DNA of 32,134 bases from the NCBI GenBank assembly GCA_000992015.1, contig LBSQ01000001.1, positions 19,473 through 51,606 of the forward strand, given 5' to 3'. The stretch's first letter is position 1; each line of letters opens with the position of its first letter. Origin of the DNA: Parcubacteria group bacterium GW2011_GWA2_37_10 (GTDB lineage: Bacteria; Patescibacteriota; Minisyncoccia; Minisyncoccales; Staskawiczbacteraceae). Below are positions 5,880 to 25,146 of this stretch, one piece after another. Both the position numbers and the translations under genes were made by a program. The notes beneath the pieces were generated by a model. That model was not told the origin of the DNA. It did not search any database and saw only the letters and a list, made by a program, of their open reading frames with translations.

Positions 5880-7748
5880 TTATCCCTTAAACGGCTTATA
5901 ATGAGGCAAAAAACTTCTCAAAATACTGATTATTTTTTCGTCTTGAGGACTGCCTACGATTTTTTTGAGTTCTTCTATCTTTTTCTCTAATTTTACTGAA
6001 TCTATATTGGAAAGATTTGCCATAAAAATTTTTTGGTTTTGCGTCGCAACGGTACCTTCCTCTGCCGTAAGTATTTCTTCAAAAAGTTTTTCACCCGGCC
6101 TTGGTTTTGTAAAAACAATGGCGATGTCTTTGTCTAATTCAAGCCCGGACAATTTAATCATTTCTTTAGCAAGGTCTAAAATTTTAACCGGTTCTCCCAT
6201 GTCTAAAACAAACACTTCCCCTCCTTTGCCCATAGACCCTGCCTGCACAACAAGCAGGCACGCTTCAGAAATCAGCATTAAATATCTTTTCATTTTAGGG
6301 TGGGTAACTTCTACGGGCCCCCCTTTTCTGATTTGCTCCTTGAACGTCGGCATCACGCTTCCTCTGCTGTTTAATACGTTTCCGAATCTTACGGAAATAA
6401 ATTTAACATTATTTTTTTGGTTATATGCCTGGCATATCATTTCGCCAACTCTTTTTGTGGCGCCCATCACCGAAGTCGGATTTACCGCTTTGTCCGTTGA
6501 AATAAAAATAAATTTTTCAACATTGGTTTCCAAACTGACTTGTGCCAAGTTTTTTACGGCAAAAATATTATTTTTTACCGCTTCATCGGGTTGGGCTTCC
6601 ATTAAAGGAACGTGTTTATATGCCGCCGCATGAAAAATAATTTTTGGCCCAAAGTTTTTAAAAACTTCTTCTATTTTTTTTCTGTCTAAAATATTTGCTA
6701 CTAAAGATTTAATCTCCAAGTGCGGAAACTTATTTTTTAGTTCTTCTGAAATATTAAAAATCCCGGTTTCGTCTTGGTCTAAAAGCATAAGCAGAGACGG
6801 ATTAAATTTTGCGGTTTGCCTTGATAATTCAGATCCAATTGAACCCGCGGCGCCAGTTATTAAAACCACTTTATCTTTTATAAAATTTTCAATTTGTTTT
6901 ATTTCTAACGAAACCCGTTCTCTTCCCAATAAATCCTCCACCCCAACATCTTTGAGGCTGCGCAAAGATAAGTGGCCGTTGATAATTTCGGTTATCGGCG
7001 GTGTAATTTTAATTTTTTTTAATCCTGCCTTCTTTCCATTTTCAATTGCATTTTTAATTGTTTTTCCGCTTGCCGACGGCAGTGCAATAACCATTTGTTC
7101 AATCTGATATTTTTTTACAATTTTTTGGATATCTTCAATTTTTCCTAAAACTCTAAGCCCATGAATCGTTATGTTTTGTTTTATGGAACTGTCATCAATA
7201 AATCCAACCGGAGTATACGGGCTGTTTACAGCCGAAAACATGCTTCTTAAAATCTGCTCTCCGGCATCTCCCGCTCCGATAATAAGTATTTTTTCCTTTT
7301 TCAGCAACCTGTTGGACCCGATAATGTGCAAATAAATTCTTTTGGCAAAACGCAAGGCTCCGCACAAAACAAATACAAAAATATAACTTATAAAAATAAT
7401 TGACCTTGGGAAAGTTGCGAAGGAGGTAAAATCTTTGGAAATATAAATCGCAGCTCCCAAAAACAAGAAGGAAATGCTTGTAGCCTTAAACAAAGAAATC
7501 AACTCGCTGGCTGAAACATAAGACCACGAAAAAGAATAAAGCCCCTGAGAATAAAATATAGGGATAGTAAAGATTATGGCGAGCCCGGCGGTTTCAAAAA
7601 TAAAGTGTAAATATTGCGCAGGCACGAGGCCGTCAAATCTTATTAAAAAAGCCAACCAAACCGAAACAGCAATTAAAATTACGTCTGTCAAAATAAAAAA
7701 TATATTGCGTGTTACAATTGTTTTTTTAAATAGAGAATGAAAGTTCAT
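5880..7748 (-). CDS. Membrane-bound nucleotide-sugar 4,6-dehydratase (PglF/CapD/WbpM-like)
   Basis: Enzymes of this family convert UDP-GlcNAc to the 4-keto-6-deoxy sugar, the precursor of bacillosamine- or QuiNAc-type residues. The protein is 622 residues, the usual length. About four N-terminal membrane segments (residues 17-140) are followed by a first Rossmann unit (LIIGAGDAGEQ, 156-164) and a catalytic dehydratase domain with TGAAGSIG (298-305). It also has ISTDKAVNPTSVMGATK (416-432), where Met replaces the usual SDR Tyr, as in PglF-type dehydratases. It starts in a 4-base overlap with the upstream aminotransferase, which should use its keto product. The exact sugar is not determined by sequence. 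Confidence 0.93.
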   Translation of the reverse strand: MNFHSLFKKTIVTRNIFFILTDVILIAVSVWLAFLIRFDGLVPAQYLHFIFETAGLAIIFTIPIFYSQGLYSFSWSYVSASELISLFKATSISFLFLGAAIYISKDFTSFATFPRSIIFISYIFVFVLCGALRFAKRIYLHIIGSNRLLKKEKILIIGAGDAGEQILRSMFSAVNSPYTPVGFIDDSSIKQNITIHGLRVLGKIEDIQKIVKKYQIEQMVIALPSASGKTIKNAIENGKKAGLKKIKITPPITEIINGHLSLRSLKDVGVEDLLGRERVSLEIKQIENFIKDKVVLITGAAGSIGSELSRQTAKFNPSLLMLLDQDETGIFNISEELKNKFPHLEIKSLVANILDRKKIEEVFKNFGPKIIFHAAAYKHVPLMEAQPDEAVKNNIFAVKNLAQVSLETNVEKFIFISTDKAVNPTSVMGATKRVGEMICQAYNQKNNVKFISVRFGNVLNSRGSVMPTFKEQIRKGGPVEVTHPKMKRYLMLISEACLLVVQAGSMGKGGEVFVLDMGEPVKILDLAKEMIKLSGLELDKDIAIVFTKPRPGEKLFEEILTAEEGTVATQNQKIFMANLSNIDSVKLEKKIEELKKIVGSPQDEKIISILRSFLPHYKPFKG

Positions 7749-8905
7749 TTTATTTTTTGCGCTAAACTTATTGCTTCTTTCAAATTTTTAACCACAAATT
7801 CTATTTCCTCTTCTTTCAAATTATTAAAAAGGGGCAGCGCTAATGTTCTTTTACTGACATTTTCTGCTATTGGAAAATCGCCCTCTTTGTATCTAAACTC
7901 TTTTTTATAAAACGGCTGCGAATGGATTGTTTGAAAATAATTTCCGCATTGGATTCCCCTCTCTGCCATCTTTTTAATTATCACATCCCTCTTACCGGAT
8001 AATTTCCCGCTTAATTTTATAACATAAACAAACCAGCTTAATTTGTTTCCGGATTTTACAAAAGGAACTTCAATCCCTTCAATTGATTTCAGCCTTCTAT
8101 TATATATGCCAGCAACTTTTGCCCTTTTACCTAAAATTTCTTTGATCCGCTTCATTTGAGCAATTCCCATGGCGCAGCTCATCTCGTCCAATCTGTAATT
8201 ATAACCCAGCCTTATATGCTCTAACCATTTTCCATTTTTTTTCTCTCTGCCCTGATTTGCCATACTGCGGCAACTCTCTGCAATTTTGCGATTATTAGTT
8301 AGAATCATTCCGCCTTCTCCGGTTGTTATCTGCTTATTTGGATAAAAGGCATAAATTGCGGCATCTCCAAAACTTCCGCATTTTTCGCGCTTAGCGCGTA
8401 GTGAGCCCGTCGAACTATACTCTGACCCCAGCGCTTCGGCTGAATCCTCTATCAAAAATAATTTATGCTTTTTCACAATTTTCTGCAATTCGTTCCAATC
8501 AGCGGGCTGAGAAAAAACATCAACCGCTAAAATTGCCTTTGTTTTTTCGGTAATTTTTTCTTCTATTTTTTTAACGTCAATATTAAAAGTTTTTTCGTCT
8601 ATATCTATGAAAACGGGTTTTGCTTTTTCAAACAAAATACAATTTGACGAAGCTATAAAAGAAAAAGGAGTTGTAATTACCTCGTCTCCGTCTTTAATGC
8701 CCAGCGCCCTTATAATAAGATGCAATCCGCTTGTTCCGCTGTTCACTGCCACGGTAAACTTTACTCCGGCGAAATCAGCCATTATTTTTTCAAACTCTTT
8801 ATATTTTTCTCCCAAACTCAAAGAAGAGGTTTCTAAAACCTCTGCCACGGCTTTCTTCTCTGAATTTGTTATGTCCGGTTTTGACAGCGGAATTTTATAT
8901 TTCAT
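7745..8905 (-). CDS. DegT/DnrJ/EryC1-family sugar aminotransferase
   Basis: A PLP enzyme expected to aminate the 4-keto sugar made by the downstream dehydratase. The protein is 386 residues. Seen: NSGTSGLHLIIRAL (cofactor phosphate binding), EDSAEALGSE (the Asp that contacts the PLP ring), and FYPNKQITTGEGGM with the Schiff-base Lys (K191). Between SE and KCGSFGDAA there is an extra stretch, YSSTGSLRAKRE (about 164-174), encoded by a GC-rich palindromic insert; in homologs the two flanks are separated by only a few residues. It overlaps the acetyltransferase gene upstream by 11 bases and the dehydratase gene downstream by 4. Confidence 0.94.
   Translation of the reverse strand: MKYKIPLSKPDITNSEKKAVAEVLETSSLSLGEKYKEFEKIMADFAGVKFTVAVNSGTSGLHLIIRALGIKDGDEVITTPFSFIASSNCILFEKAKPVFIDIDEKTFNIDVKKIEEKITEKTKAILAVDVFSQPADWNELQKIVKKHKLFLIEDSAEALGSEYSSTGSLRAKREKCGSFGDAAIYAFYPNKQITTGEGGMILTNNRKIAESCRSMANQGREKKNGKWLEHIRLGYNYRLDEMSCAMGIAQMKRIKEILGKRAKVAGIYNRRLKSIEGIEVPFVKSGNKLSWFVYVIKLSGKLSGKRDVIIKKMAERGIQCGNYFQTIHSQPFYKKEFRYKEGDFPIAENVSKRTLALPLFNNLKEEEIEFVVKNLKEAISLAQKIK
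8386..8411. repeat. GC-rich palindromic insert inside the aminotransferase gene
   Basis: A CGCGCT-T-AGCGCG palindrome (8386-8398) followed by TAGTGAGCCCGTCGAAC. It is read in frame as STGSLRAKRE between two conserved aminotransferase blocks. G+C is far higher than in the gene around it. The unit differs in sequence from the repeats in secA, so it belongs to another repeat family. Confidence 0.7.
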
Positions 8906-9299
8906 TTTTGAGAAACTTTATCACTTTTGCCGGCGCGCCATAAGCAATCACATTATCTGGAATGTCTTTGTTGACAAAACTATATGCTCCAATAATAGAA
9001 TTTTCACCAACAGTAACTCCCGGCATAATTGTAGAATGCGTTCCTATTTTGCAATTCTTTTTTAAAACCACTTTTCCTTTTTTATTATCAATTGTAGAAA
9101 CAGAATAAATTGAGCAATGGGACCCAATCTGAACACCAACGGTAATTTCAATCCCGAACTTTGCATTCATATAAGTAAAAGCGCCAATGTCTGTATTTTT
9201 GCCCAATTTAAGATTTTCCGGGTTTTTAACAACCCAATTATATTTTGTCGGTTTGCCGTCTTCTATTTCCGGCGCTAACCAATTTTTAAATCTGCTCAT
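8895..9299 (-). CDS. Hexapeptide-repeat (left-handed beta-helix) acyltransferase
   Basis: Probably transfers an acetyl (or other acyl) group to an amino sugar. The protein is 134 residues, one short LbH domain with repeating I/V-G-x-x turns (LGKNTDIGAF, VGVQIGSHCSI, NCKIGTHSTIMPGVTVGENSIIGAYSFV) ending in the common VIAYGAPAKVIKFL closure. It lacks the N-terminal Rossmann-like domain of PglD. It overlaps the PIG-L gene by 4 bases upstream and the aminotransferase by 11 bases downstream, so acetylation of the amino group introduced by that aminotransferase is a natural guess, though not proven. Confidence 0.88.
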   Translation of the reverse strand: MSRFKNWLAPEIEDGKPTKYNWVVKNPENLKLGKNTDIGAFTYMNAKFGIEITVGVQIGSHCSIYSVSTIDNKKGKVVLKKNCKIGTHSTIMPGVTVGENSIIGAYSFVNKDIPDNVIAYGAPAKVIKFLKNEI

Positions 9300-9964
9300 T
9301 TTATTTCTCTGACGAGCATAAAGGCTTCTGCATATCTTTTGCCGACCTCCATGCCCCTCTTTTGCGCTAATATTTTTATACCTTCTAAAGACCTTGGGTG
9401 AGGATATTCTTTTAATTCTGACTTATAACACTGTATTGCTTTTATTTTATCATCTAAAAAATCTGAAATATTTTCATAATAATTAGGAGTAAAAATATTT
9501 CCTGCGCCTTGGGCTGGATTAGACCATTCTGTTTCAGACAAAACCTCATAACAAAACACTTTTTTAACAGGAGAATCGGGTCTGGGTCTTACTGCCACCA
9601 AAGCGGATTCAGCAACCAGTTTATGGTCTTTATTAATGTCTCCAGAAAACGGTATAAAAACTATTTCCGGCCCTACTTCTTGAACTACTTTTGAGATAGA
9701 GTCATTTAACTTTTTTTGAGAAATTATATCAAGTTTCACTGTCGGAAAATCTAAAAGAAATAATTTGCTAATTCCGAGTGTTTTTACCGACAACTCTATT
9801 TCTTTTTTCCTGTTTGTTATAAATTCTTCTGACCAGTCTGGAGTATATGCCTTAGTGACAATGCAAAGAAAAACCTCGTCCCCTTTTTCTGAATATTTTT
9901 TTATTGTTCCTCCGCAACCCAAAACCTCGTCGTCCGGATGCGGAGCTATTACTAAAATTTTCAT
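9296..9964 (-). CDS. PIG-L/LmbE-family N-deacetylase
   Basis: Zinc-dependent deacetylases of this family act on GlcNAc-type groups. The protein is 222 residues and begins at the ATG at 9964. Seen: the N-terminal zinc and catalytic motif APHPDDEVLGCGGT, and later IFIPFSGDINKDHKLVAESAL with the third zinc-binding His region. It is first in a four-gene unit with acyltransferase, aminotransferase and dehydratase. It could remove an acetyl group that the acyltransferase replaces with another acyl group. The leader is A/T-rich with no Shine-Dalgarno; a promoter candidate lies 29 bases upstream. Confidence 0.92.
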   Translation of the reverse strand: MKILVIAPHPDDEVLGCGGTIKKYSEKGDEVFLCIVTKAYTPDWSEEFITNRKKEIELSVKTLGISKLFLLDFPTVKLDIISQKKLNDSISKVVQEVGPEIVFIPFSGDINKDHKLVAESALVAVRPRPDSPVKKVFCYEVLSETEWSNPAQGAGNIFTPNYYENISDFLDDKIKAIQCYKSELKEYPHPRSLEGIKILAQKRGMEVGKRYAEAFMLVREIK

Positions 9965-9992: not shown

Positions 9993-10020
9993 ATATTATC
10001 AGATTTTTGCCTTAAATCAA
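9993..10020 (-). promoter_or_regulatory. Promoter candidate for the PIG-L to dehydratase unit
   Basis: Reverse strand: TTGATT (10015-10020), 16-base spacer, TAATAT (9993-9998) preceded by TGA, giving an extended -10. It lies between the PP2C terminator and the PIG-L ATG, where a new transcript is needed. Confidence 0.5.
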
Positions 10021-10024
10021 CATA

Positions 10025-10063
10025 CAAAAAAAGGCTGATGCCCGACAAGAGACATCAGCTTTT
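10025..10063 (-). terminator. Rho-independent terminator of the PP2C-like gene
   Basis: Reverse strand: GCTGATG / CATCAGC stem around a loop of about 12 bases, followed by seven T. It begins about 5 bases past the stop codon of the PP2C-like gene and isolates that gene from the PIG-L operon. Confidence 0.85.
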
Positions 10064-10067
10064 ACTT

Positions 10068-10946
10068 TTACAACAACTTGATTTCCACTGCAGAAGCCTC
10101 TGGCCAGCCAGTTATATGAGATAGAGAGTCCTCGGTCTCATCTCGCCATTGCAGGACAGTCGGTAAACCACCACTCGCGTAAAGACTCCAAACATTCAAA
10201 GCCGTTCCTTCTTTGCGCGCGGGATTCATCGCCGCTGAAGTAAGCAAACCGTCACTGCCCAGTAGAATAAACTGCGGACGAGATAAACAGTTGATTTTCT
10301 TTACCATCCAGCACTCTTTCAGGGCCGGATCGCCGTTTAACAGGGGATATCCGCCCTTCCCGATGTTCTTGTTGGCGCAACGGATTTTCCTGGCTGAAAA
10401 GATCGGAAAGTAGATATCCCAAGCGCGGCCTTTGTCACCCTCTGTCTGCTTAAAACACTCCGCGATAGTAGCATTCGCTTCCTGCTCGTCTTTGAAAGCG
10501 GCCTGGTCAAACCCGGTAAGAAAAGATATACTATCGTTATACTTGACAAGGGCAAAACAATCCCCAGCGATAACGAAGGTAATTTTTGCCGGACCGAAAT
10601 GGCAAACAGCAAAGCTTGCCCCGCCAACATCTTGCCCCCTTGTAGGATCCTTTCCCTGAACATTGTGGGCCCGGCGAATTCGGCTGTTAGCATTAAGCGC
10701 AAATTCCTCAACATCAACCGGAGCGGACACAGACATCCCAGCCGAACAAAACTCTTTTGTCGCCACTTGTCCTCCGGTAAGACCTCCAGGATATATCAGC
10801 GGCGGATTGCTGGGGCTGTATCCAGCTGAAACACCATCAGATACCCCGAAAAGACCTGCCTGCGCGTTGACGAAAGCCCCATCTTCTTTAGGCGCTTTTT
10901 CGTCAGATGGCGCTCTGTAGAAAGACTTTGCTGAAAAAAATTTCAC
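10068..10946 (-). CDS. PP2C-like serine/threonine phosphatase domain protein, foreign composition
   Basis: The PP2C (PPM) family removes phosphate from Ser/Thr using two metal ions. The protein is 292 residues from a GTG at 10946, preceded by a clear AGAGG. Visible PP2C landmarks in order: ED (21-22), GVSDG (34-38), GGASFAVCHF (108-117), a buried strand ending IAGD (126-129), and LLGSDGL (D232). The final family Asp-Asn is replaced by Glu-Ala in PEASAV (282-287), so metal binding at that site may be altered. No membrane segment or signal peptide is seen. It is a single-gene unit with its own promoter and terminator. One sampled line (10621-10680) has 34 G+C in 60, far above the glycan genes. 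Family call from motifs only; substrate unknown. Confidence 0.7.
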   Translation of the reverse strand: MKFFSAKSFYRAPSDEKAPKEDGAFVNAQAGLFGVSDGVSAGYSPSNPPLIYPGGLTGGQVATKEFCSAGMSVSAPVDVEEFALNANSRIRRAHNVQGKDPTRGQDVGGASFAVCHFGPAKITFVIAGDCFALVKYNDSISFLTGFDQAAFKDEQEANATIAECFKQTEGDKGRAWDIYFPIFSARKIRCANKNIGKGGYPLLNGDPALKECWMVKKINCLSRPQFILLGSDGLLTSAAMNPARKEGTALNVWSLYASGGLPTVLQWRDETEDSLSHITGWPEASAVEIKLL

Positions 10947-11005
10947 CTGAAACCTCTCTTTCTATGGGTTGGTGGATAGTTGCATATTTTCAAAAATCTA
11001 CTAAC

Positions 11006-11034
11006 ATCCTATAATAAAATTATAAATTTGTCAA
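11006..11034 (-). promoter_or_regulatory. Promoter of the PP2C-like gene (TTGACA-N17-TAGGAT)
   Basis: Reverse strand: perfect TTGACA (11029-11034), 17-base AT-rich spacer, TAGGAT (11006-11011), then about 50 bases of leader and a strong Shine-Dalgarno before the GTG. It matches the promoter of the Nudix-like gene in spacing and all but one base of the two boxes. Confidence 0.65.
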
Positions 11035-11050
11035 TCATTGACTCCTGCAT

Positions 11051-11752
11051 TTACACTTTATCGGCGGAATTAATAATTTCCAAACTTTTCGGACCGCAAT
11101 TAAATAATAAGTCAATTACGGAAAGGTTTTCTAAAAACGGCGCAAATCTTTGAGAATAAACCGGGTGCTCAAATTCTGAAAAAATAAGTTTGAGATTGTT
11201 TTTTTTCAACTTTTCTTCCTCAATATAAAGTTTCCCTCCAACCCCCGAAAAATAGGTATCAGCCTTAAATTTTTTGCATAATTCAATTATCAAATCGGTT
11301 TTATGGCCTTTAAAATCAAAGCCTGAACTTTTAATAATGGGGGTCTTAATTTCTAACTTTTCTTCCAAATAGCAAATAATGTTTTCATTTAAATCAGAAA
11401 GTTTTTGCCATTTTTGGGAATATAGTTTTTCAAAAAAATCACAATAAACATCAAAAAATGGGGTTTTTTTATAGTTAAAATAAATGGTTTTCCAGTGCTG
11501 TCTTGCCCAAGGGATGGAGTTATCTATTTCTACTTCATTTATTTTTTGATATCCTTTACCACTAGTGACAACCGGCACCGTGAGCCAAAGCCACCCCTGA
11601 GAGTTAGAAGAAGTTCTAATCCGATTCCTATTCTGAAAACTTCCATCGTAAAACTGAACATGGTCAACTAAAATAAACTTGTCAGCCTTTGCTATTTTAT
11701 AAAAAAAGCCGAGGTAAGGAAGGTATTCTGGCTGATGCGCTGAAATAATCAT
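11051..11752 (-). CDS. WbqC-family protein
   Basis: WbqC-like proteins occur in O-antigen and other glycan clusters; their reaction is not well defined in my knowledge. The protein is 233 residues. The family signature is at the N-terminus: ISAHQPEYLPYLGFFYKI, then DHVQFYDGSFQNRNRI and GWLWLTVPV. A later SGFDFKGHKTDLIIELCK and DTYFSGVGGKLYIEEEKL also fit the family. It overlaps the upstream sugar transferase gene by 4 bases, so it is the last gene of that transcript. The PP2C-like unit begins right after it. Confidence 0.9.
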   Translation of the reverse strand: MIISAHQPEYLPYLGFFYKIAKADKFILVDHVQFYDGSFQNRNRIRTSSNSQGWLWLTVPVVTSGKGYQKINEVEIDNSIPWARQHWKTIYFNYKKTPFFDVYCDFFEKLYSQKWQKLSDLNENIICYLEEKLEIKTPIIKSSGFDFKGHKTDLIIELCKKFKADTYFSGVGGKLYIEEEKLKKNNLKLIFSEFEHPVYSQRFAPFLENLSVIDLLFNCGPKSLEIINSADKV

Positions 11753-12372
11753 TTTATGTTTGTTGGTGGAGGGAGATTAATCCCATCTTTGCCATAAACT
11801 CCTTTTCTGGAAAGAACGGCAAAAAAACCAATAAATAATATTTTAAAATCCAGCCATAAAGACTGGTTATCAACATACCATGCATCATATTCTAATCTTT
11901 TTTCCCACGACACCAGCCCCCTGCCCTTAATATCCACCAGGCAGACCAATCCAGGTTTTACTAATAATCTTTTCTTCCATAATTCATTTAAAAAACTGTC
12001 TTGATTCGGATACCTAGGCAATGGCCTTGGTCCGACCAAACCCATATCTCCTTTGATTATATTAATCAACTGTGGCCATTCGTCAAGCGTCCATTCCCTT
12101 AAAAATTTACCTAATTTTGTTATCCGAAAATCATTTTCCGCAGAAGCCAAACCTAGCCCCATATTCTCCGCGTTTCCTACCATTGTCCTAAATTTCCAAA
12201 TTCTAAATATCTTCCCGTTTTTGCCTAACCTTTCTTGTTTAAAAAACACCGGTCCTTTTGAATCCAATTTTATTAGAATAGCCATAAAAACAAAAACAGG
12301 ACTTAAAATAATAAATATGATTAAGGCCGGTAGAAAGTTTGCCGAATTTCTAACAAATTCCTGAAAATTCAT
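11749..12372 (-). CDS. Initiating sugar-phosphate transferase (bacterial sugar transferase family)
   Basis: Transfers the first sugar phosphate from a nucleotide sugar to undecaprenyl phosphate, starting glycan assembly on the inner face of the membrane. The protein is 207 residues, the short single-domain (PglC/WbaP-core) form. It has one hydrophobic N-terminal segment (FLPALIIFIILSPVFVFMAI), then the signature FFKQERLGKNGKIFRIWKFRTM, LREWTLDEWPQLINIIKGDMGLVGPRPL with the catalytic Asp-Glu, and a C-terminal KPGL motif. The full-length polyprenyl HPT extra domain is missing. The PglF-like dehydratase gene nearby suggests that its donor could be the modified sugar, but this is inference. Confidence 0.95.
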   Translation of the reverse strand: MNFQEFVRNSANFLPALIIFIILSPVFVFMAILIKLDSKGPVFFKQERLGKNGKIFRIWKFRTMVGNAENMGLGLASAENDFRITKLGKFLREWTLDEWPQLINIIKGDMGLVGPRPLPRYPNQDSFLNELWKKRLLVKPGLVCLVDIKGRGLVSWEKRLEYDAWYVDNQSLWLDFKILFIGFFAVLSRKGVYGKDGINLPPPTNIK

Positions 12373-13538
12373 TTTATTTTTTTATCAATAAGCCGCTGAT
12401 ATTCATTTTTTAATCTGTCTAAAACCAATTCATGGCTAAATTCCTTTAAAATCTTTTCTCTGCCGCGCTTGCCCATTTCTTTTGCTATATCCGGGTTGTC
12501 TAAAATGTATAAAATTGCCTCGGTCAGTTTTTCCACATTTTTTACCGGGACCAAAATCCCTGTCTCTCCATTGCTGACCGCCTCAGGGCATCCTCCGGTG
12601 TTGCACGCTATCACCGGTATTTCCATTGAAGACGCTTCTAAAATTGACGCCCCCACTCCTTCTCTGTGAGTTGGTAAAACAAATATATCCATTAATGGAT
12701 ATATTTCATCAACATCGCTTCTTTCTCCTAGAAAAATTACATTTTTTTCTATACCGTATTCTTTGACAACTTCAAGGTCCACTTTATCTTTTTTTTCAGG
12801 CTCTCTTGGACCAACAATCAGGAGCTGGGTATCGGGAAATTTACTAATCGCATGCTTAAATGATTCAAAAAGTTCAAGGTAGCCTTTTTCTTCAACTAGT
12901 CTGGCCACAATGCCGATGACTTTTTTATCTAAGCCTATTCTAAGCCGCTTCTTTTTATTTATAATAAATTTTTCAGAAAATCTTTCGGGATTAAATCTGC
13001 CGGTATCAATGTCTCTGCCCAAATATTTTAACAAATCTGGCCTGCAAATTCTTTCTTCAATTGCTTTTCTAACCACATCTTTGCTCACGGAAAAAATGAC
13101 ATCGGAATACTTAGCTGTAAATCTTTGCAAAAAAGTGAAAAACTTTCTTTGCGTCCAACGCGTATCCGGCGAAAGGTCAAACCCATGCAAAGTATCCATA
13201 ATAATTGGGACGCCGGCTAATTTTGCGGCTAATTGGCCATAGATTTCAGGTTTTGGAGTGTGAGTATGAACTATATCAAACTTCTCTTTTTTGAAATATA
13301 AAAACAGTTGAAAAAAGGCGACTATGTCTGCGCGTGGAGAAAATGACCTTCTCTTAAATCTTATGGTTTTTACCTTAATGCCGCTCTGCCCGATGTCTTT
13401 AATCCATTTCCCCTCAGAGCAGATGGCTGAAACATCGTATCCTTGCTTCTGCAAAAATTTCAGCTGATTCAAAAGCATAAACTTTAAAGTAATATCAACT
13501 GAAGCAACACAGCAAACTTTAATTTTTTTATGTTCCAT
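12369..13538 (-). CDS. Glycosyltransferase family 4
   Basis: A retaining GT-B glycosyltransferase acting on the lipid-linked glycan. The protein is 389 residues with an N-terminal acceptor domain (FDIVHTHTPKPEIYGQLAAKLAG) and a C-terminal donor-binding domain. The latter contains IGIVARLVEEKGYLELFESF and the E-x7-E motif EGVGASILEASSMEIPVIACN followed by GGCPEAV. It overlaps the sugar transferase downstream by 4 bases and the epimerase remnant upstream by 11. Its position next to the initiating transferase makes it a candidate for adding the second sugar. Confidence 0.95.
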   Translation of the reverse strand: MEHKKIKVCCVASVDITLKFMLLNQLKFLQKQGYDVSAICSEGKWIKDIGQSGIKVKTIRFKRRSFSPRADIVAFFQLFLYFKKEKFDIVHTHTPKPEIYGQLAAKLAGVPIIMDTLHGFDLSPDTRWTQRKFFTFLQRFTAKYSDVIFSVSKDVVRKAIEERICRPDLLKYLGRDIDTGRFNPERFSEKFIINKKKRLRIGLDKKVIGIVARLVEEKGYLELFESFKHAISKFPDTQLLIVGPREPEKKDKVDLEVVKEYGIEKNVIFLGERSDVDEIYPLMDIFVLPTHREGVGASILEASSMEIPVIACNTGGCPEAVSNGETGILVPVKNVEKLTEAILYILDNPDIAKEMGKRGREKILKEFSHELVLDRLKNEYQRLIDKKIK

Positions 13539-13913
13539 ATTTTAGCGTAGCGATATAATTTTCAGCATACCATTTAATCGACAGAGATATTCCTTTTTTA
13601 AGAAAATAATTTGGCTTATACCCTAAAATCATTTTTGCTTTTGAAATATCTGCAACAAATTTTACCACCTCTCCCTTTCGGTTGCCTCTTATGATTATTT
13701 TACTTTTACTGTTTAATTCTTTCTTTATAATTTCGGCGGCTTTAACCAATTTCTCGCCTTTGCCTCCGGCAACATTAAAAATATCGTTATGAATTACCAA
13801 ATCAAAATCAACGGGCAATTTTGCGATATCGCTTTTATTAGAAGTTTTTCAAAAAGTCTGGTGCCAATAGTTCCGCTTGAACCGGTTATTAAAATTTTTT
13901 TAATTCTCTCCAT
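13528..13913 (-). pseudogene. Decayed NAD-dependent sugar epimerase
   Basis: Starting at an ATG at 13913, the reverse strand reads MERIKKILITGSSGTIGTRLFEKLL, the N-terminal Rossmann strand and GxxGxxG of an extended SDR epimerase. It then changes frame. The next frame continues as KSDIAKLPVDFDLVIH, typical of the middle of the NAD domain, and jumps straight to NDIFNVAGGKGEKLVKAAEII and the C-terminal family end (DISKAKMILGYKPNYFLKKGISLSIKWY). About 60% of a normal epimerase of about 300 residues is missing, including Ser-Tyr-Lys. The track's 96-residue ORF is only the second fragment. This is a gene remnant with at least two deletions and one frameshift. Confidence 0.82.
13540..13563. repeat. 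Dispersed motif copy 2 (TTTTAGCGTAGCGATATAA)
   Basis: Second copy of the motif also found at 3214 and 26105. Here it forms the last codons (NYIATLKYG) of the epimerase remnant, just upstream of the GT4 start. Confidence 0.55.
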
Positions 13914-14782
13914 TATTTTTTGCTTCGACAAAACGGCAATCTAAACATAAACGCCCGTGATTTAACTAACGTCAAGCGCAACTTCTGTTTTTGCTTATAT
14001 GGCAAAAAAGAATAAAAAAAGCTTGCCCAGCAAAGTAAAATAGCTTTTTTATAACTCGGGTAATCATTTTTGTATTGCTTCCTCATTTTTATATTAAGCC
14101 ATATTTTTCTTCGCGAGCTGTTCTTTCTGGAGAAAAATATTTCACTGCCTTCTTTTTCCAAATAATAAATAAAATATTCCTGAAAATTATAAAATTTAGA
14201 TATTTTGCCCATTTTAAGCCACAAATCTAAATCAGCCGAATAATCAAACAATGCGTTGTAACCTGCGGCTTTTTCCCAAATATCCTTCCTAAAAAGAGCC
14301 GAGCTGTGAGCAATCAGATTATTAGCAGAAAGTATTGATTTTCTAATTTCTCTGTCATGCTCCGGAAATACAAACCTCGCAATTTCATTATTCTTTATAT
14401 CTATTTTTATCATGCCTCCGCCGACTAATCCATAATCATTATTTTTTTCCATAAATTCTACTTGCTTTTTAATTTTTTGGGAATCAATCCAAATATCATC
14501 GTCGTCTAAATTGGCGATATATTTTCCCTTAGTCGCCCTTATTGCTTTATTCAAGCTTTTGTACGAACCTATGTTACTCTTGTTCTTGAAACTTCTAATC
14601 CGCGAATCTTTTTTCAAATACTCAAAAATTATTTTGGGAGTGTCGTCAGTTGAACAATCGTCCGTTATAATCAGCTCTATATTTTTATAGGTTTGCCCCA
14701 ATACGCTGTCAATCGCTTTTTTTATATACTTTGCCCCATTATAGGTAGATATAACAGCTGAGACTAATGGTTGTTGACTCAT
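13913..14782 (-). CDS. Glycosyltransferase family 2
   Basis: An inverting GT-A glycosyltransferase. The protein is 289 residues. Seen: SAVISTYNGAKYIKKAIDSVLGQTYKNIELIITDDCSTDDT (nucleotide-binding N-terminus, quoted here as family pattern), KYIANLDDDDIW (the DxD metal motif) and HSSALFRKDIWEKAAGYNALFDYSADLDLWLKM (acceptor-side ED-like motif). There is no membrane segment, though the basic C-terminus could bind the membrane surface. Its stop overlaps the ATG of the epimerase remnant, so the remnant is still inside the transcript. Confidence 0.95.
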   Translation of the reverse strand: MSQQPLVSAVISTYNGAKYIKKAIDSVLGQTYKNIELIITDDCSTDDTPKIIFEYLKKDSRIRSFKNKSNIGSYKSLNKAIRATKGKYIANLDDDDIWIDSQKIKKQVEFMEKNNDYGLVGGGMIKIDIKNNEIARFVFPEHDREIRKSILSANNLIAHSSALFRKDIWEKAAGYNALFDYSADLDLWLKMGKISKFYNFQEYFIYYLEKEGSEIFFSRKNSSRRKIWLNIKMRKQYKNDYPSYKKAILLCWASFFYSFLPYKQKQKLRLTLVKSRAFMFRLPFCRSKK

Positions 14783-14804
14783 TTTATTAACTTACTATCG
14801 CGGG

Positions 14805-15761
14805 TTAAATTATTTTTTTCGTTTCTAACCAGACTATCATATCAAGGGGAAACGTTTGCCAATGCTCTTTTATAATTCTAAATTTATTTTTATGCAATAA
14901 ATCAATCAAATCGTCATATTTCCAATGAAAAATGTGGGAGGTAGCCCATCCTTTTTTCTTAAGCGCTTTATTGATCGCCGCTTCAATAAGATTTTTAAAA
15001 CCGCCAATCCGAAATTTGTAAACAACGTCCGAAACTAAGCGGCGCAAAAAAGTATCTCTGTTTTCTGCCCTTGAAAATGATTTTCCGCCAAAAACCGTTG
15101 AACTGATAATTAATATGCCCCCTGTTTTAAGAACACGGTAGGCCTCTTTTATGGCAAGATACGGATCTGAAAAGTGATCCATGGCCGATTTTATATGGAC
15201 AACATCAAAAGTGTTTTTGACAAAAGGAAGATTTTCAGCGCAGCATGCTAAAAAATTACAGGGTTCAAGCAGACGAGGGTAAGCCTTTAACAGATTCGGG
15301 CGCAATTCAAAATTTTCAAACCCGTTTATAAGCGGATCAACGGATATATACAAAGGCACGTTGTCTCTTTTAATAAATTGACGTAGTTTCCCCTCTCCTC
15401 CGCCGATATCAAGCACTTTTCCTTTAATATTAAATTCTTTAGCATATATTTCCTTGAGGGACTCAACTTCATTAGAAAATACTAAAAAATCATCTTTTTT
15501 TGTATAACGTTCAAAATAACCATTCATATAATCATTTTGAACCGCTAACCAATTCTTTAATCCTCTGTTCATACAATAATCGGGTCTATGAATGCGAAAA
15601 TCAAAAACCTTATCCTTTAATCCTCTTTGAGGAATATCCTGCGAAGGATATTTACTGGCGCAAACTTTGCAAATAAACTCCTTGTCCTGTATTTTAAGGG
15701 GCTCCTTGCATAAAGGGCAACAAAGAGTTTTTATGATTTCTGCGTCTAGTTTTACATACAT
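14805..15761 (-). CDS. SAM-dependent methyltransferase with N-terminal zinc ribbon
   Basis: Predicted class I methyltransferase. The protein is 318 residues. The N-terminus has a Trm112-like zinc ribbon (CCPLC ... CKVC, about residues 14-34). The methyltransferase core follows: VLDIGGGEGKLRQF (SAM motif I), then FDVVHIKSAMDHFSDPYLAIKEAYRVLKTGGILIISS (motifs IV to VI). Zinc-ribbon methyltransferases of this shape are common in surface-glycan clusters, where they methylate sugars or lipid-linked intermediates. The target here is unknown. Gaps to neighbours are only 6 and 22 bases. Confidence 0.9.
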   Translation of the reverse strand: MYVKLDAEIIKTLCCPLCKEPLKIQDKEFICKVCASKYPSQDIPQRGLKDKVFDFRIHRPDYCMNRGLKNWLAVQNDYMNGYFERYTKKDDFLVFSNEVESLKEIYAKEFNIKGKVLDIGGGEGKLRQFIKRDNVPLYISVDPLINGFENFELRPNLLKAYPRLLEPCNFLACCAENLPFVKNTFDVVHIKSAMDHFSDPYLAIKEAYRVLKTGGILIISSTVFGGKSFSRAENRDTFLRRLVSDVVYKFRIGGFKNLIEAAINKALKKKGWATSHIFHWKYDDLIDLLHKNKFRIIKEHWQTFPLDMIVWLETKKII

Positions 15762-15767
15762 AATTTT

Positions 15768-17060
15768 TTATATCTTGTCGGTATTGTAAATTTCATGCCA
15801 TTTTTTTTTAAAATATAAATAAAAAACCGCCAGTAAAAATAATTCAGTGATAGCCGTGGCAATTATTGCTCCCATCGCATTATATCTAATAATTAAAAAA
15901 TAATTAAGGATAATGTTCAGTATAGACGCAAGCCCGCTGGCCACTAAAACCTTTTTCTGCTCGTTTGAACCGGATAAAAACCAGTTGTAAACATAAGATA
16001 AAGATTTGACCAATATAATAAAAGACAATACTTTTAAAAGCGCAACCGACGCCGAATAATCTAATGAATAAATTTTTATTACAAGAAAATTTGCCGACAA
16101 AAATAATCCGATGCTCAGCAAAAAACCGATGGCAACCATAACCAGCCTATAGTTGAAAAATATTTTTTGTAATTCTGTTTTATTTTTTTCATAAAAATAT
16201 GAAATTTTAGGAAAAAAACTCATGGTAACAACGCTTGGAACGATAAAAACCGCGAGAAACAGGTTATAGGCGGCATTATAATATCCCACCTCCTCCATAT
16301 TAGAAAATATTCCCAACATTACCGAACCCATTACAAAATATATCATATAAAAAATACCTGAAAATAAAAACGGCCAGGCTTTTTTAGCAATTTCTTTCCA
16401 TATTTTGAAGTCAGCCTTAAAAGACGGCCTGAGAAGATATGCTTTAAGAAAAAACAACGAAAAAGAGGCGCCTATAAAACTTGCTATTAAAAATGCGGAA
16501 GAAATAAATAGAACGGAACTTTTGTTTAAAATAAAAAAAGCCGACAGAACCAATAGGCATAAACTTTGCGCTATTCTGCAAACAGCCTCGTACTCCATTT
16601 TTTCGTTAGCTCTGAAAATTGCCTGAAAAAGCGCCGCAAAGTTATTTATTACAATATAAAGACTCAAAAAATAAACTAAATTTATCACCATCGAATCTCT
16701 GCTCAATAGCCTAATTGCTAATGCGGCAAGCGCCGTTACTGCCAGTCCTAAAATTAATTTCATCGTCAAAATATTGCCGATGTACTCAGAAGATTTTGTC
16801 TTATCCCGGGCAAGTTCCCTGATAATTAACATAGTAAAACCAAAATCAACAAATACGGCAAAAAAACTTACAAAGCTCAAAGCAAAACTCCACTTACCGT
16901 AGGTTTGCGGGCCCAAATAACGAGCCAGCCAAATAAAAACCAGAAAATAAATTCCGTTGCTGAAAAACTCGGCTAAAGCAAGCCAAAAGGCATTCTTTAA
17001 AAGGGTTTGTTTAATCCCTAAATTTTCAAAAAAAATAGTTTTGATGATTTTTATTTTCAT
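15768..17060 (-). CDS. Wzx-type polysaccharide flippase
   Basis: Moves lipid-linked oligosaccharide across the cytoplasmic membrane. The protein is 430 residues with roughly 12-14 hydrophobic segments, normal for the MOP/PST superfamily. The N-terminus KNAFWLALAEFFSNGIYFLVFIWLARYLGP followed by YGKWSFALSFVSFFAVFVDFGFT is the classic Wzx opening. Helix-rich repeats continue to AIIATAITELFLLAVFYLYFKK. It overlaps asnB by 4 bases. A second flippase fragment lies at the right edge of the window. Confidence 0.93.
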   Translation of the reverse strand: MKIKIIKTIFFENLGIKQTLLKNAFWLALAEFFSNGIYFLVFIWLARYLGPQTYGKWSFALSFVSFFAVFVDFGFTMLIIRELARDKTKSSEYIGNILTMKLILGLAVTALAALAIRLLSRDSMVINLVYFLSLYIVINNFAALFQAIFRANEKMEYEAVCRIAQSLCLLVLSAFFILNKSSVLFISSAFLIASFIGASFSLFFLKAYLLRPSFKADFKIWKEIAKKAWPFLFSGIFYMIYFVMGSVMLGIFSNMEEVGYYNAAYNLFLAVFIVPSVVTMSFFPKISYFYEKNKTELQKIFFNYRLVMVAIGFLLSIGLFLSANFLVIKIYSLDYSASVALLKVLSFIILVKSLSYVYNWFLSGSNEQKKVLVASGLASILNIILNYFLIIRYNAMGAIIATAITELFLLAVFYLYFKKKWHEIYNTDKI

Positions 17061-18934
17061 TTTTTATCTATAAATTGTCTGTGCCATAACTCAAAATTTA
17101 AAATCAGCCAAAATTGGGAATCAAGCGGTTGATTTTTATTTTGATAATTTTTGTAGAGTTTTTCCATATATTCAAAATTGAAGTAACCCCTTGATTTGGT
17201 TTTTTTATCAAAAATTATTTCAAATAAATAATTTTTCAATTTTCCCTTAAACCAAATGTTTGTTGGGACGGCGAGACCGTGCTTTATTTTTTTCAAAATT
17301 TTCTTTGGTAAAATGTCTTTCATCGCCTCCTTTAAAATATACTTAGTTTTAAAACCTTTTATTTTATATTTTGCCGGAATTGAATTGGCAAAATCAACCA
17401 AATGATGATTTAAAATAGGAGATCGTGTTTCTAAACCAAATGCCATACTTGCTTTATCAATCTTTTCTAAATAGCAATCGGGTAGCCAGATTTTCTGGTC
17501 TAAATACAAAATTTTATCAAGCAGGTTTTCCGGTTGATAACGGAAAAAATATTTTTTGTAAATTTTGAGAGGGTCTTCCTTAAAAGCGGGCAATTCCGGA
17601 TTAAAAAGGTTGCTAATCATATCCTTGGAAAAAAATGCCAGCCAATTTGTATACCTCGTCAAATCATCTTCAATCGGCATAGTTTGAATGAATTTTTTTG
17701 CACTTCGTAATCCCGGCAGTAGTTCAATGGATTTTTTGAATATGCTACTTTTGAAAAGCCGATTAAAAAGTAAAGTTTTAGAACGGTTGCTCTCGGCAAC
17801 AAAGCGGCGGTAGCCTCCAAAAATTTCGTCGCCGCCTTCGCCAGTCAAAACAACTGTTACATACTTCTTTGCAAATTGGCTAAGGTAAAAAACCGGAAAG
17901 GCGGCGGCATCTCCGAATGGTTCGTCATAGTGATAAACAATCTTGTTTAAGATATTTATTAAATCAGGTTCTTTTAAAAATAATTCGTGGTGTTCGGTTT
18001 TGAAATGATTTGCCACAATTTTGGCATCGGCAAGTTCATTAAATTCTTTGCCGGCAATATCAAAACCGACCGAAAAAGTCCTCAACGGAGAAACTCCATT
18101 TTTTGCCATCATCGCAACTACCGAGCTTGAATCAATTCCTCCGCTTAAAAAAGCGCCAAGAGGAACATTTGATACCAATTCATCCTTAACCCCTTCTTCA
18201 AAAAGTTCTCTTATTCTATTTTTATAATATTCTTCTCCTTTGTCTTCTTTGCGGCTGGGTAGCGCTGCGTCCCAATATTCGCAAATGCTAATTTCTCCAT
18301 TTTTTAAAAAAAGATAATGGCTGGGTAAAAGTTTTTTAATCCCCCGGTAAATAGTATCCGGAGCGATAGAGTGGCCAAAAGTAAAATAATTTATCATACC
18401 TTGGCCGTCTATAATCCTCGGAATACTCCTGTCCTCTAATATCGCTTTTATTTCGGAGCCGAAAACAAATTTTTCTTTATTTAAAAAATAATACAAAGGT
18501 TTCTCTCCCAAACGGTCTCTAGCCAAAAAAATACTCCTATTTTTTTCATTAAATATAGCGAAAGCAAACATTCCGTCAAATTTTTTGACGCACTCATGTC
18601 CCCATTCCTCAAAACTATGCAAAATAACTTCGGTGTCGGTTTTTGATTTAAATTGGTGGCCGATTTTCTCAAGGTCTCTCCTTATCTTTTGAAAGTTGTA
18701 AATTTCGCCGTTAAATACTACTCTCAGAGTTCCGTCTTCGTTTGCCATCGGCTGGCGGCCGGCAACCGAAATATCAATAACCGACAGCCTTCTGTGACCT
18801 AATCCTACGTTTTTGTTTATATAAACACCTCCATCGTCCGGGCCGCGATGGCTTAAGGCATCAACCATTTTTTTAAGCAAAAAAGAATCTACTGGATTTT
18901 CTTTTAGGTTATAAATTCCGGCAATTCCACACAT
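17057..18934 (-). CDS. asnB: Asparagine synthetase (glutamine-hydrolysing) AsnB
   Basis: Makes asparagine, or in glycan clusters amidates carboxyl groups such as uronic acids, using glutamine and ATP. The protein is 625 residues, the usual length. It begins MCGIAGIYN with the catalytic Cys2 directly after Met, which fixes the start. The glutaminase domain carries SHRGPDDGG, VFNGEIYNF and SKTDTEVI; the synthetase domain carries the ATP loop LSGGIDSSSV and LTGEGGDEIFGGYRRF, then DKASMAFGLETRSP and GFKTKYILKEAM. Its place between a flippase and a UDP-sugar dehydrogenase-like gene favours a role in decorating the glycan with amides, but ordinary asparagine supply cannot be excluded. Confidence 0.95.
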   Translation of the reverse strand: MCGIAGIYNLKENPVDSFLLKKMVDALSHRGPDDGGVYINKNVGLGHRRLSVIDISVAGRQPMANEDGTLRVVFNGEIYNFQKIRRDLEKIGHQFKSKTDTEVILHSFEEWGHECVKKFDGMFAFAIFNEKNRSIFLARDRLGEKPLYYFLNKEKFVFGSEIKAILEDRSIPRIIDGQGMINYFTFGHSIAPDTIYRGIKKLLPSHYLFLKNGEISICEYWDAALPSRKEDKGEEYYKNRIRELFEEGVKDELVSNVPLGAFLSGGIDSSSVVAMMAKNGVSPLRTFSVGFDIAGKEFNELADAKIVANHFKTEHHELFLKEPDLINILNKIVYHYDEPFGDAAAFPVFYLSQFAKKYVTVVLTGEGGDEIFGGYRRFVAESNRSKTLLFNRLFKSSIFKKSIELLPGLRSAKKFIQTMPIEDDLTRYTNWLAFFSKDMISNLFNPELPAFKEDPLKIYKKYFFRYQPENLLDKILYLDQKIWLPDCYLEKIDKASMAFGLETRSPILNHHLVDFANSIPAKYKIKGFKTKYILKEAMKDILPKKILKKIKHGLAVPTNIWFKGKLKNYLFEIIFDKKTKSRGYFNFEYMEKLYKNYQNKNQPLDSQFWLILNFELWHRQFIDKK

Positions 18935-18937
18935 ATG

Positions 18938-19765
18938 TTAATTTCTTTTTGAAAATTTTTTAGGATCGTTTATTGACTGACCCTCCAACAATTGGTTGTT
19001 AATTTCTTCGGCTGTTTTGTGAAGTTTTAGGTCAATGCCGATACTGTCGGCAAATTTAATTAAGGATTTGATATCTTTTGGCAGGCATTTACCGCCATAG
19101 CCCCGATAGCCCTTGTGAAAAACCTCAAGGTGGGTTCTTCCTATTCTTTTATCAGCCGCTGCTGATTCTGTAACCATATCATAATTAATATTCAATTTTT
19201 GGCACAAATCATACATCTGGTTGGCGAAAATTACCTTAATTGAAAACCAAGTATTGCCAAAATACTTAACCATTTCAGCTTCAGTGGAAGGCATTATTTT
19301 TTCAAATGGCGCCAAGGGCAAAATTTGCATAATATCTCCTGCCACATTATAACTTTCTTTTGTATGCCCTATTATTTGCCTGTCTGGATATTCCATATCT
19401 TGGTCTGCCGTTGTTTCAGTTAAAAATTCAGGGTTGAATAAAAACTTATGTTTTGAATATTTTTGCTGAAGAGCTTTGGTGGTTCCCGGAATAACGGTTG
19501 ATTTTATCACTATTATTTTTTCTCCAGAAATATTATCGCAAGCGTCTTCAATAAAAGACAAATCAAATCCTTTTTCTGCGTCAAAAGGAGTGGGAACGCA
19601 AATAAATATAACATCTGCATTGTTTATTTCTCCAACAGAGCCCTCATTTTTTCCCTTGTCGTAAAATAAAACCGTAAATTCCCTCTTATCAAAATATCTC
19701 TTTACCGCTCCCCCCACCATTCCCAATCCCATAATTCCTATTTTAAATTTTTTATTATTTTCCAT
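18938..19765 (-). CDS. UDP-glucose/GDP-mannose 6-dehydrogenase-like protein, short form
   Basis: The family oxidises a nucleotide sugar to its uronic acid in two NAD-dependent steps. I place the start at the ATG at 19765 (275 residues); the track start four codons upstream is a TTG. Seen: GIMGLGMVGGAV (NAD), FICVPTPFDAEKG, STVIPGTT, NPEFLTETTADQD, and the catalytic Cys in YGGKCLPKDIKSL (C227). Family members usually exceed 380 residues; the C-terminal nucleotide-sugar-binding domain is absent and the protein stops shortly after the central helices. There is no frame-shifted extension, as asnB begins 3 bases after the stop. It may be a truncated but active variant, or one that needs a partner. 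Confidence 0.85.
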   Translation of the reverse strand: MENNKKFKIGIMGLGMVGGAVKRYFDKREFTVLFYDKGKNEGSVGEINNADVIFICVPTPFDAEKGFDLSFIEDACDNISGEKIIVIKSTVIPGTTKALQQKYSKHKFLFNPEFLTETTADQDMEYPDRQIIGHTKESYNVAGDIMQILPLAPFEKIMPSTEAEMVKYFGNTWFSIKVIFANQMYDLCQKLNINYDMVTESAAADKRIGRTHLEVFHKGYRGYGGKCLPKDIKSLIKFADSIGIDLKLHKTAEEINNQLLEGQSINDPKKFSKRN

Positions 19766-20669
19766 AGTTTTCTTCAAACCATTTTTTAGTAATATTTACC
19801 CCGTCTTTAAAATCGACATTGGGCTTCCACGAAAGAAGATTTTGGGCCAACGTGGTGTCTGCCTGGGTGTGGCGGGGATCTCCGATTCGGGCTTCAAAAT
19901 ACTGAACTTCTCCTCCCAGCAATCCAGCCAGATAATTTATGGAATAAGAATTTTCCTGGCCGATGTTTATCACCTCTCCTCCTTTTATTTTAGAACTCTC
20001 TGACGCCTTAATATTGGCGTCAACCACATCTTCAACAAAACAAAATCCTCTAGTTTGCTCTCCGTCGCCGTATATAGTAAAAGGTTTATTTTGTGACTTC
20101 AGTTTTAAAAATTTGCCGAGAACTAGGCTGTAATCAGAATTAAAATCAATCCTTGGGCCGTAAACATTAAAATATCTTAAACAGACAATTTGAATTTTAA
20201 AAAGGCTGACAAACATTTTCGCGTATTGCTCGCCTATTAATTTCTGCAGGCCGTATGGGCTCAAAGGATTCGGGGACATATTTTCCACAAGAGGCAATTT
20301 TTCTTGCGCACCGTATATAGAAGAAGACGATGCAAAAACAACTCTTTTCACCTTGCTATCAACTGCTGCCTTAAAAACATTCACCGTGCCCAAAACATTC
20401 ACCTTTGATGTATTCACCGGATCTTCTATGGACAGAGGAACCCTTGGGATAGCGGCTAAATGAAAAACATAATCTACTCCATTAAAAATTGGGCTGATTT
20501 TTTCAAAATCGCAAACATCTTCCTTAAAAAAATTTGCCTTGGGATTTAAATTTTTAAGATTGCCTGTTGAAAGATTATCAATCACAACAACATCGTGTCC
20601 CAGCTCTATTAATTTATCAACAAGATGACTACCTATAAAACCCGCTCCCCCGGTGACTAAATATTTCAT
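19755..20669 (-). CDS. NAD-dependent sugar epimerase (extended SDR, GalE/WbpP-like)
   Basis: Predicted to epimerise or otherwise modify a UDP-sugar. The protein is 304 residues, normal. Seen: TGGAGFIGSHLVDKL (NAD loop, residues 6-20), DNLSTG, FHLAAIPRVPLSIEDP, the catalytic Ser in ASSSSIYG, Tyr-x3-Lys in SPYGLQK, and RYFNVYGPR. It overlaps the dehydrogenase-like gene (11 bases from the chosen start) and the membrane protein upstream by 4. Together with the dehydrogenase it could supply a galacturonic- or related uronic-type donor, an inference from gene order only. Confidence 0.94.
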   Translation of the reverse strand: MKYLVTGGAGFIGSHLVDKLIELGHDVVVIDNLSTGNLKNLNPKANFFKEDVCDFEKISPIFNGVDYVFHLAAIPRVPLSIEDPVNTSKVNVLGTVNVFKAAVDSKVKRVVFASSSSIYGAQEKLPLVENMSPNPLSPYGLQKLIGEQYAKMFVSLFKIQIVCLRYFNVYGPRIDFNSDYSLVLGKFLKLKSQNKPFTIYGDGEQTRGFCFVEDVVDANIKASESSKIKGGEVINIGQENSYSINYLAGLLGGEVQYFEARIGDPRHTQADTTLAQNLLSWKPNVDFKDGVNITKKWFEENYGK

Positions 20670-24221: not shown

Positions 24222-24237
24222 AATATTTTTAAATATT
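24222..24237. promoter_or_regulatory. AT palindrome touching the Nudix promoter
   Basis: AATATTT-TT-AAATATT, a perfect 7-base inverted repeat that ends inside the TTGACA of the Nudix-like gene and sits 35 bases before the HldE2-GmhB ATG. It is a possible operator between divergent genes. AT-rich DNA forms such palindromes by chance, so confidence is low. Confidence 0.3.
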
Positions 24238-24264
24238 GACATTATCATGAATAAATGATAGCAT
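24236..24264 (+). promoter_or_regulatory. Promoter of the Nudix-like gene (TTGACA-N17-TAGCAT)
   Basis: Perfect TTGACA (24236-24241), 17-base spacer, TAGCAT (24259-24264), then about 85 bases of leader containing a small hairpin (CGCAG-GCGT-CTGCG, 24301-24314). The boxes and spacing match those of the PP2C-like gene. Confidence 0.65.
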
Positions 24265-24344
24265 GAGTGCATCTTGAACATTGACAAAATAGTTGTTTTT
24301 CGCAGGCGTCTGCGAACAGCTACTATTGGATTTGTTCGGTTTTG

Positions 24345-24351
24345 GGAGAGG
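24345..24351 (+). promoter_or_regulatory. Strong Shine-Dalgarno that fixes the Nudix start
   Basis: GGAGAGG lies 5 bases before the ATG at 24357. The track's TTG start at 24342 is upstream of this site and is therefore unlikely. Neighbouring glycan genes have only A-rich leaders. Confidence 0.75.
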
Positions 24352-24356
24352 GTGTT

Positions 24357-25070
24357 ATGAACGAACGTAAAAAAATAGTTCTCGCGAAACATCTGATTGG
24401 CAAGGGCGGTTGGGTAAGCCTCTATGGTTTCAACACCGAGGGCGGCCGTCGAGAAATATTGGCGCGAAATAACGGCCACTTTAAAGCGGCCAAGTGCCTG
24501 GTTCTGTACGTTGACAAAAATGTGTGGGAAAAATTGCGTGCTGAGAACAGCAGTGGTCTTCCGACCTTTTTGCGCCGTCTCAAGGCGATTGGATTATCCA
24601 ATTTTCAGGTTTTCCTTTTGGCGGTAGACAGGCCCCTCACGTATTCGGATTCACTGGATCTTGCCGGGCTGACTGCAAACCACCAACTGGAATTATCCGG
24701 AGGCGTAGCTGACGCAGTTGATAAGGACGCTATCGCCACCGGTGTACGGGAAACCTACGAGGAATATGGCTGCACGGCCGCAGATGTCGCGATGACAGCT
24801 CCTTTGGTAGCCGAAGGAGCTCACGTGGCATATGATGCCGGTGGCCAGGTAGAGATCTACTCAATTTCCGTTGCCGTTGTCACACAAAAACCAAGTCCTC
24901 CACGACGCGAAGGCACCATACCGGACAAATGCGTTTTAGTGCCCCTTTTGGAAGCTGAAGAGTTCCTGATGGAACAGGGCAGGCAGGGCATCCTTCTAGA
25001 AGGGCTTGCCTTGACTGCGCTATCTCATCTCGGCCTTGCATTGCATGGCGGATGGAATAGCTTGAGATAA
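24357..25070 (+). CDS. Nudix-like hydrolase, foreign composition, opposite strand
   Basis: Nudix enzymes hydrolyse nucleoside diphosphates linked to another group. The protein is 237 residues from the ATG at 24357. The second half of the Nudix box is intact, RETYEEYG (131-138), preceded by SGGVADAVDKDAIATGV. In the first half the spacing is one residue long, and the expected Glu is Lys or Asp, so the box is imperfect. A family-typical APLVAEGAHVAYDAGGQVEIYSISVAVV follows. It is the only confident plus-strand gene and lies between the heptose kinase and the HldE2-GmhB genes. One sampled line (24661-24720) has 34 G+C in 60, against 17 in 60 at 23521-23580. It has its own promoter, Shine-Dalgarno and terminator. 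Activity on ADP-sugars is conceivable given the location, but not shown. Confidence 0.75.
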   Translation: MNERKKIVLAKHLIGKGGWVSLYGFNTEGGRREILARNNGHFKAAKCLVLYVDKNVWEKLRAENSSGLPTFLRRLKAIGLSNFQVFLLAVDRPLTYSDSLDLAGLTANHQLELSGGVADAVDKDAIATGVRETYEEYGCTAADVAMTAPLVAEGAHVAYDAGGQVEIYSISVAVVTQKPSPPRREGTIPDKCVLVPLLEAEEFLMEQGRQGILLEGLALTALSHLGLALHGGWNSLR

Positions 25071-25104
25071 TGGAATATCCTTCTTGGCGCTAAACTTCAC
25101 AACG

Positions 25105-25137
25105 CCCGTCGGTTGACAAACTGACGGGCTTTTTTTA
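25105..25137 (+). terminator. Rho-independent terminator of the Nudix-like gene
   Basis: GCCCGTCGGTT / CTGACGGGC form a GC-rich stem around a short loop containing GACAAA, followed by seven T. It lies 35 bases past the Nudix stop and just before the end of the convergent kinase gene. Confidence 0.92.
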
Positions 25138-25146
25138 TTGATAATT

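Follow-up and report, generated by a model that had tools for sequence, protein, structure and literature searches.

Within a 32,134-nucleotide stretch of the genome of Parcubacteria group bacterium GW2011_GWA2_37_10, a small member of the Candidatus Staskawiczbacteria, here called the window, a single gene with a promoter, leader and terminator of its own stands among the genes of a surface-glycan region. The evidence set out below leads us to consider it fairly probable that this unit, which probably encodes a divergent PP2C-type phosphatase, is a self-contained accessory module, exchanged horizontally within that region, and that it belongs to a class of similarly built units spread over the genome. 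The gene is a single open reading frame of 292 codons beginning with GTG, and the unit and its surroundings (window 9993-11034 and the two adjoining genes, all on the minus strand) can be listed as follows, with the promoter, leader and intrinsic terminator assigned from sequence and the two neighbours from Pfam.

11051-11752 (-): upstream neighbour, WbqC-like protein, part of a glycan operon and outside the unit
11029-11034 (-): -35 element TTGACA of the unit's own promoter
11006-11011 (-): -10 element TAGGAT, separated from the -35 element by a 17-bp spacer
10947-11005 (-): leader of 59 nt with a Shine-Dalgarno-like AGAGAGG
10068-10946 (-): PP2C-like (PPM) phosphatase gene, 292 aa, GTG start, G+C 0.499
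10026-10063 (-): intrinsic terminator, hairpin followed by T7
9993-10020 (-): exit promoter-like element TTGATT-N16-TAATAT, directly after the terminator, with a conserved spacer end ...AAATCTGA
9296-9964 (-): downstream neighbour, PIG-L deacetylase, part of a glycan operon and outside the unit

The leader ends in AGAGAGGTTTCAG, after which the GTG follows, and the arms of the terminator stem read AAGCTGATG...CATCAGCC-T7. A preliminary description of this DNA had proposed a stand-alone, single-gene cassette with a TTGACA-N17-TAGGAT promoter, a Shine-Dalgarno sequence, a GTG start and a hairpin/T7 terminator, and every one of these elements was found in the sequence, with promoter, leader, reading frame and terminator located at 10026-11034. 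Its count of 34 G+C in the 60 nucleotides at 10621-10680 was reproduced.

Profile searches of Pfam, PHROGs and the PDB with the window protein alone returned no match. Pfam PP2C_2 is matched by four of 12 relatives, at 1.9e-6 for the best of them, and among models of known defence systems, none of which the window protein matches, the PADLOC PP2C model is matched by one relative at 1e-4, a similarity that reflects the fold. A search with a four-row alignment led to three named Staskawiczbacteria loci; an AlphaFold2 model built from the window sequence and these three reached a pLDDT of 85.2 and a pTM of 0.87, whereas the prediction from the window sequence alone (pLDDT 31) was of no use. The alpha-beta-beta-alpha PP2C fold is present in this predicted structure, whose 130 PDB matches at E<=0.001 have bacterial PP2C proteins on top, the best being the serine phosphatases Stp1, PstP and MsPP (E 1e-9 to 1e-10). 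The motifs of the fold are retained as E21-D22, D37-G38, G128-D129 and D232-G233, and the closing Asp-Asn is replaced by Glu283-Ala284 with all remaining acidic metal positions kept, so that the PP2C landmarks and the Glu-Ala substitution of the preliminary description both stand. Since Glu occupies the position of the last metal Asp in 11 of 12 relatives, the substitution is a family trait. Motifs, fold matches and the conserved Glu together indicate that the protein is a divergent PP2C whose metal site, though altered, is probably intact. Stp1, PstP, MsPP and tPphA, the bacterial PP2C/PPM proteins with which it is most readily compared, share its fold and the motifs ED, DG, GD and DG; the window protein differs from them in its low identity (~11-17%), in the Glu, in an extra conserved W...NG-P...W segment and in that no Hanks-type kinase accompanies it in the window's genome. 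In that genome, which is 94% complete, searches found no Hanks-type Ser/Thr kinase (PF00069), no STAS protein, and HATPase_c_2 matches only under the cut-off; thus the usual partners of a PP2C are missing, and the STAS antagonist and anti-sigma kinase of RsbU/SpoIIE partner switching were likewise not found. In a separate locus, L072 (G083:C35), three PP2C-like genes are clustered, two of them with a stop codon within the match.

The distribution of the gene is patchy: out of 247 genomes in the order, 30 contain a relative at E<=1e-5, which is not the lineage-wide conservation that would have spoken against the preliminary description. At every locus with neighbours read (in eight genomes of the family and four from other families, the neighbours being named by Pfam in the window and by sequence similarity and our own reading elsewhere), one and the same chromosomal region, devoted to surface glycans, contains or adjoins the gene; it includes a DegT aminotransferase, a CapD/WbpM-like dehydratase and Bac_transf or WecA-like transferases. 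Within family f1 it stands between or beside glycosyltransferase, Bac_transf or WecA-like genes and DegT/CapD, and in four other families it is close to these same genes. The junction itself differs from genome to genome, being WbqC / unit / PIG-L in the window, Bac_transf / unit / WbqC-PIG-L in G007, and WecA-like / unit / DegT in G020, G014 and G011, the last of which carries a second copy. Sites that are filled in one genome are empty in another. As to whether WbqC and PIG-L adjoin where the gene is absent, as the preliminary description asked, the two overlap directly in G007, where PP2C lies one junction upstream; in the window, it is Bac_transf and WbqC that overlap directly. An empty state is also seen in the complete genome G006, whose operon runs uninterrupted with its genes 3-7 bp apart. 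G016, in which no PP2C match was found, provides an empty site: the WecA-like gene ends at C19:4110, and 160 bp, a promoter element (starting at 4271) and DegT/CapD follow with no PP2C gene among them, the CapD-like gene being at 5436.

Within the family, the identities of PP2C pairs show no correlation with those of the adjacent CapD pairs (Mantel r=0.09, 7 loci), though over the order the two do correlate (r=0.38, p=0.017). Such discordance between the PP2C tree and its neighbour is suggestive of exchange, although seven loci are few and do not amount to proof. From the patchy presence, the empty site in G016 and this discordance, it follows that the gene has been gained, lost or swapped among relatives.

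Directly behind one PP2C copy in all eight family carriers, whatever gene lies downstream, there is a promoter-like element of the form TTGATT-N16-TAnTAT with a conserved spacer end (A)AATCTGA. Three of 28 non-carriers also possess such an element, whether at this operon, near it or elsewhere (Fisher p=5e-6 against the eight of eight carriers); the exact element occurs about once per genome, and a reversed control pattern almost never. The second PP2C copy of G011 lacks it. In G016, DegT/CapD is preceded by this element although the PP2C gene is missing. The element may thus be a promoter belonging to the operon, with the unit simply lying upstream of it, and the proposal that it is strictly part of the unit has to be dropped or at any rate held less firmly. 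The element would restart transcription of the split operon.

The composition of the gene departs sharply from that of its surroundings, as had been proposed. Its G+C is 0.499, versus 0.348 for 11051-22225 and 0.360 for 5880-9964, and in its own genome, which was pieced together from stretches for these gene statistics, 21 of the 701 genes of at least 90 aa are richer in G+C. The synonymous-codon score of the gene (+0.081) is exceeded by none of 613 ordinary genes (mean -0.138, SD 0.050), although this score, which was trained on other GC-rich stand-alone genes with the PP2C gene excluded from the training set, mainly repeats the difference in GC3, because that set was picked by G+C. Promoter, terminator and isolation coincide in nine of the 44 GC-rich genes of this genome versus two of the 657 others (Fisher p=3e-10).

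Single genes that are both stand-alone and GC-rich number ~20 in the window's genome and ~30 in G006, and they share a layout of TTGACA-N16-18-TATAAT-type promoters, ~50-nt leaders and mostly strong terminators. A promoter together with a terminator was found for 10/44 GC-rich genes versus 9/657 others in the window's genome (p=2e-8), for 12/44 versus 17/612 in G006 (p=4e-8) and for 5/33 versus 5/200 in G024 (p=0.006); in the out-group G042 (235 kb), the class is weak or absent. These counts are blurred by mechanical ORF calls, some of them antisense to a genuine GC-rich gene, an error from which the association should not arise. When the window's genome and G006 were compared, ordinary genes had a match in the other genome in 353/613 and 371/583 cases (~60%), whereas class proteins did so in 1/20 and 2/30, one of the two in G006 being a tRNA-region artefact. 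GC-richness was confined to genes that combine a stand-alone layout with absence of sharing between genera (median offsets +0.12 and +0.09); stand-alone genes that are shared, and operon genes that are not, have the median G+C of the genome, with an offset of ~0. The window itself holds a second unit of this class, overlooked in the preliminary description, for which no relative was found in 98 related genomes:

24236-25139 (+): promoter TTGACA-N17-TAGCAT (24236-24264), ORF 24357-25070 (G+C 0.52, weakly Nudix-like) and terminator (~25093-25137)

Several individual loci deserve separate mention. A NUDIX-family stand-alone unit outside the window (G000:C1:54872-55426) has relatives in 11 of 36 family genomes, and few such cases exist in the class. 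Two class members, L044 (10188-10884) and L079 (G000:C22:29364-30227), have common flanks, with a TGTCATTGCGAGGAGC-type repeat upstream and a variable cggtaGTaggcgaatcttgcctgagatt downstream, and in a third, L042 (G000:C19:18610), the promoter starts right at the 3′ end of a tRNA-like gene. Judged by eye, L135 and L138 (G006:C1:430996 and 503704), also class members, encode what we take to be STAS-type anti-sigma antagonists. A GC-rich block with a serine-recombinase-like gene, L159 (G042:C3:2724-14573), is probably an integrated element. Terminal motifs and target duplications were sought and rejected, the longest string common to the two flanks being 6.8 versus 6.6 for unrelated flanks; thus no mechanism of transposition is evident.

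Three other explanations were weighed. The preliminary description had likened the unit to a phage moron, which would be a phage-derived gene expressed from the prophage, and the two are indeed alike in consisting of a single gene with its own promoter and terminator and a deviant composition. The unit nevertheless lies outside any phage or prophage and is fixed to the glycan region, glycan genes neighbouring it at every locus read, and its class comprises ~20 scattered units. No relatives were found among 50,697 phage records, 72,556 plasmids or viral contigs, the PHROG searches gave no match, and the viral structures matched by the model are only eukaryotic-virus PP2Cs of the same fold; we therefore regard a moron or prophage remnant as very improbable. 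A different question is whether the protein is a catalytically dead PP2C that serves as a binding or sensor protein, as the replacement of the last metal Asp-Asn by Glu-Ala and the lack of a canonical kinase partner in the genome could suggest. Against this reading, which we judge unlikely, Glu is also able to bind metal, the other acidic positions are kept, and the near-uniform retention of Glu among the relatives suggests a working site. In the exchanged module that we favour, the protein is a putative active phosphatase.

A further view is that the gene is a resident one, kept GC-rich in each host by a class-wide pressure such as GC-biased conversion in genes that recombine often, or selection on these messages, and not foreign. 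Over nine loci, the G+C of the PP2C unit follows that of the host (r=0.94, slope 1.4, mean offset ~+0.12), and the class as a whole is offset by +0.13 in the window's genome (36.5% G+C), +0.12 in G006 (42.6%) and +0.13 in G024 (45.6%), although the class offset is partly built in, because these sets were chosen as GC-rich relative to the host; the PP2C series, which was not chosen by G+C, is the cleaner evidence. All codon positions are shifted in the GC-rich class, and PP2C homologues outside the family are near host G+C and only slightly above their neighbours. This pattern is not what a fixed foreign donor predicts, and transfer from one such donor does not explain a steady offset. The recent transfer proposed in the preliminary description thus survives in part: gain, loss and exchange are supported by the empty site and the discordance with CapD, but an alien donor is doubtful. 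The resident reading has difficulties of its own. Stand-alone genes shared across genera are not GC-rich, so that architecture alone does not cause GC-richness; ribosomal genes have an ordinary GC3, equal to that of the genome, which excludes ordinary translational selection as the cause; leaders in the class are only modestly richer (0.37 versus 0.31); and in the host of lowest G+C the offset is smaller, ~0.06. On balance, we consider a class-wide pressure on resident genes rather unlikely.

For the exchanged accessory module, we envisage an order of entry promoter, leader, one open reading frame and terminator, followed by a promoter that would resume transcription of the remaining host-operon genes and so keep the insertion from being polar. 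The unit would have entered by DNA uptake and recombination, and would since have been gained, lost and swapped among relatives, as one of a genome-wide class. Its product would be a cytosolic, metal-dependent PP2C-type phosphatase, with activity predicted, functionally tied to the surface-glycan region; as its substrate, one may envisage a protein or intermediate involved in making the glycan or in regulating that process. Single-gene transfer among Patescibacteria is already known: such transfers have been reported mostly among these bacteria, with a mean length of ~0.9 kb over the whole community (PMC12455944). In the parts of that report covered here, stand-alone architecture, packaging with promoter and terminator, and a host-tracking G+C offset are not described. 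Integron gene cassettes are likewise mobile single accessory genes, from which the present units differ in having their own promoters and terminators, in being scattered and in that no shared ends were found. The literature searched yielded no account of the class, its packaging or its host-tracking offset. Tentatively, and as a possibility that we hold with considerable doubt, the units may constitute a standing exchangeable class, with 20-30 members in a genome of 0.7 Mb, hardly any of them common to different genera, and with a composition held by some process a constant step above the host, and hence a mobile gene pool of an undescribed kind in Patescibacteria.

The streamlined genomes of Patescibacteria are believed to retain little that is dispensable. 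Those studied here nevertheless hold 20-30 unshared single genes with their own signals, nearly all without known function. If these represent a true exchange system, they would show how such small genomes vary, and the combination of stand-alone architecture, absence from other genera and G+C ~0.12 above the host would be a computable mark of accessory genes. The host-tracking offset offers a direct test case for what sets the composition of a gene. The PP2C unit, for its part, suggests that phosphorylation exerts control at the surface-glycan region, by way of which these epibiotic cells probably encounter hosts and phages.
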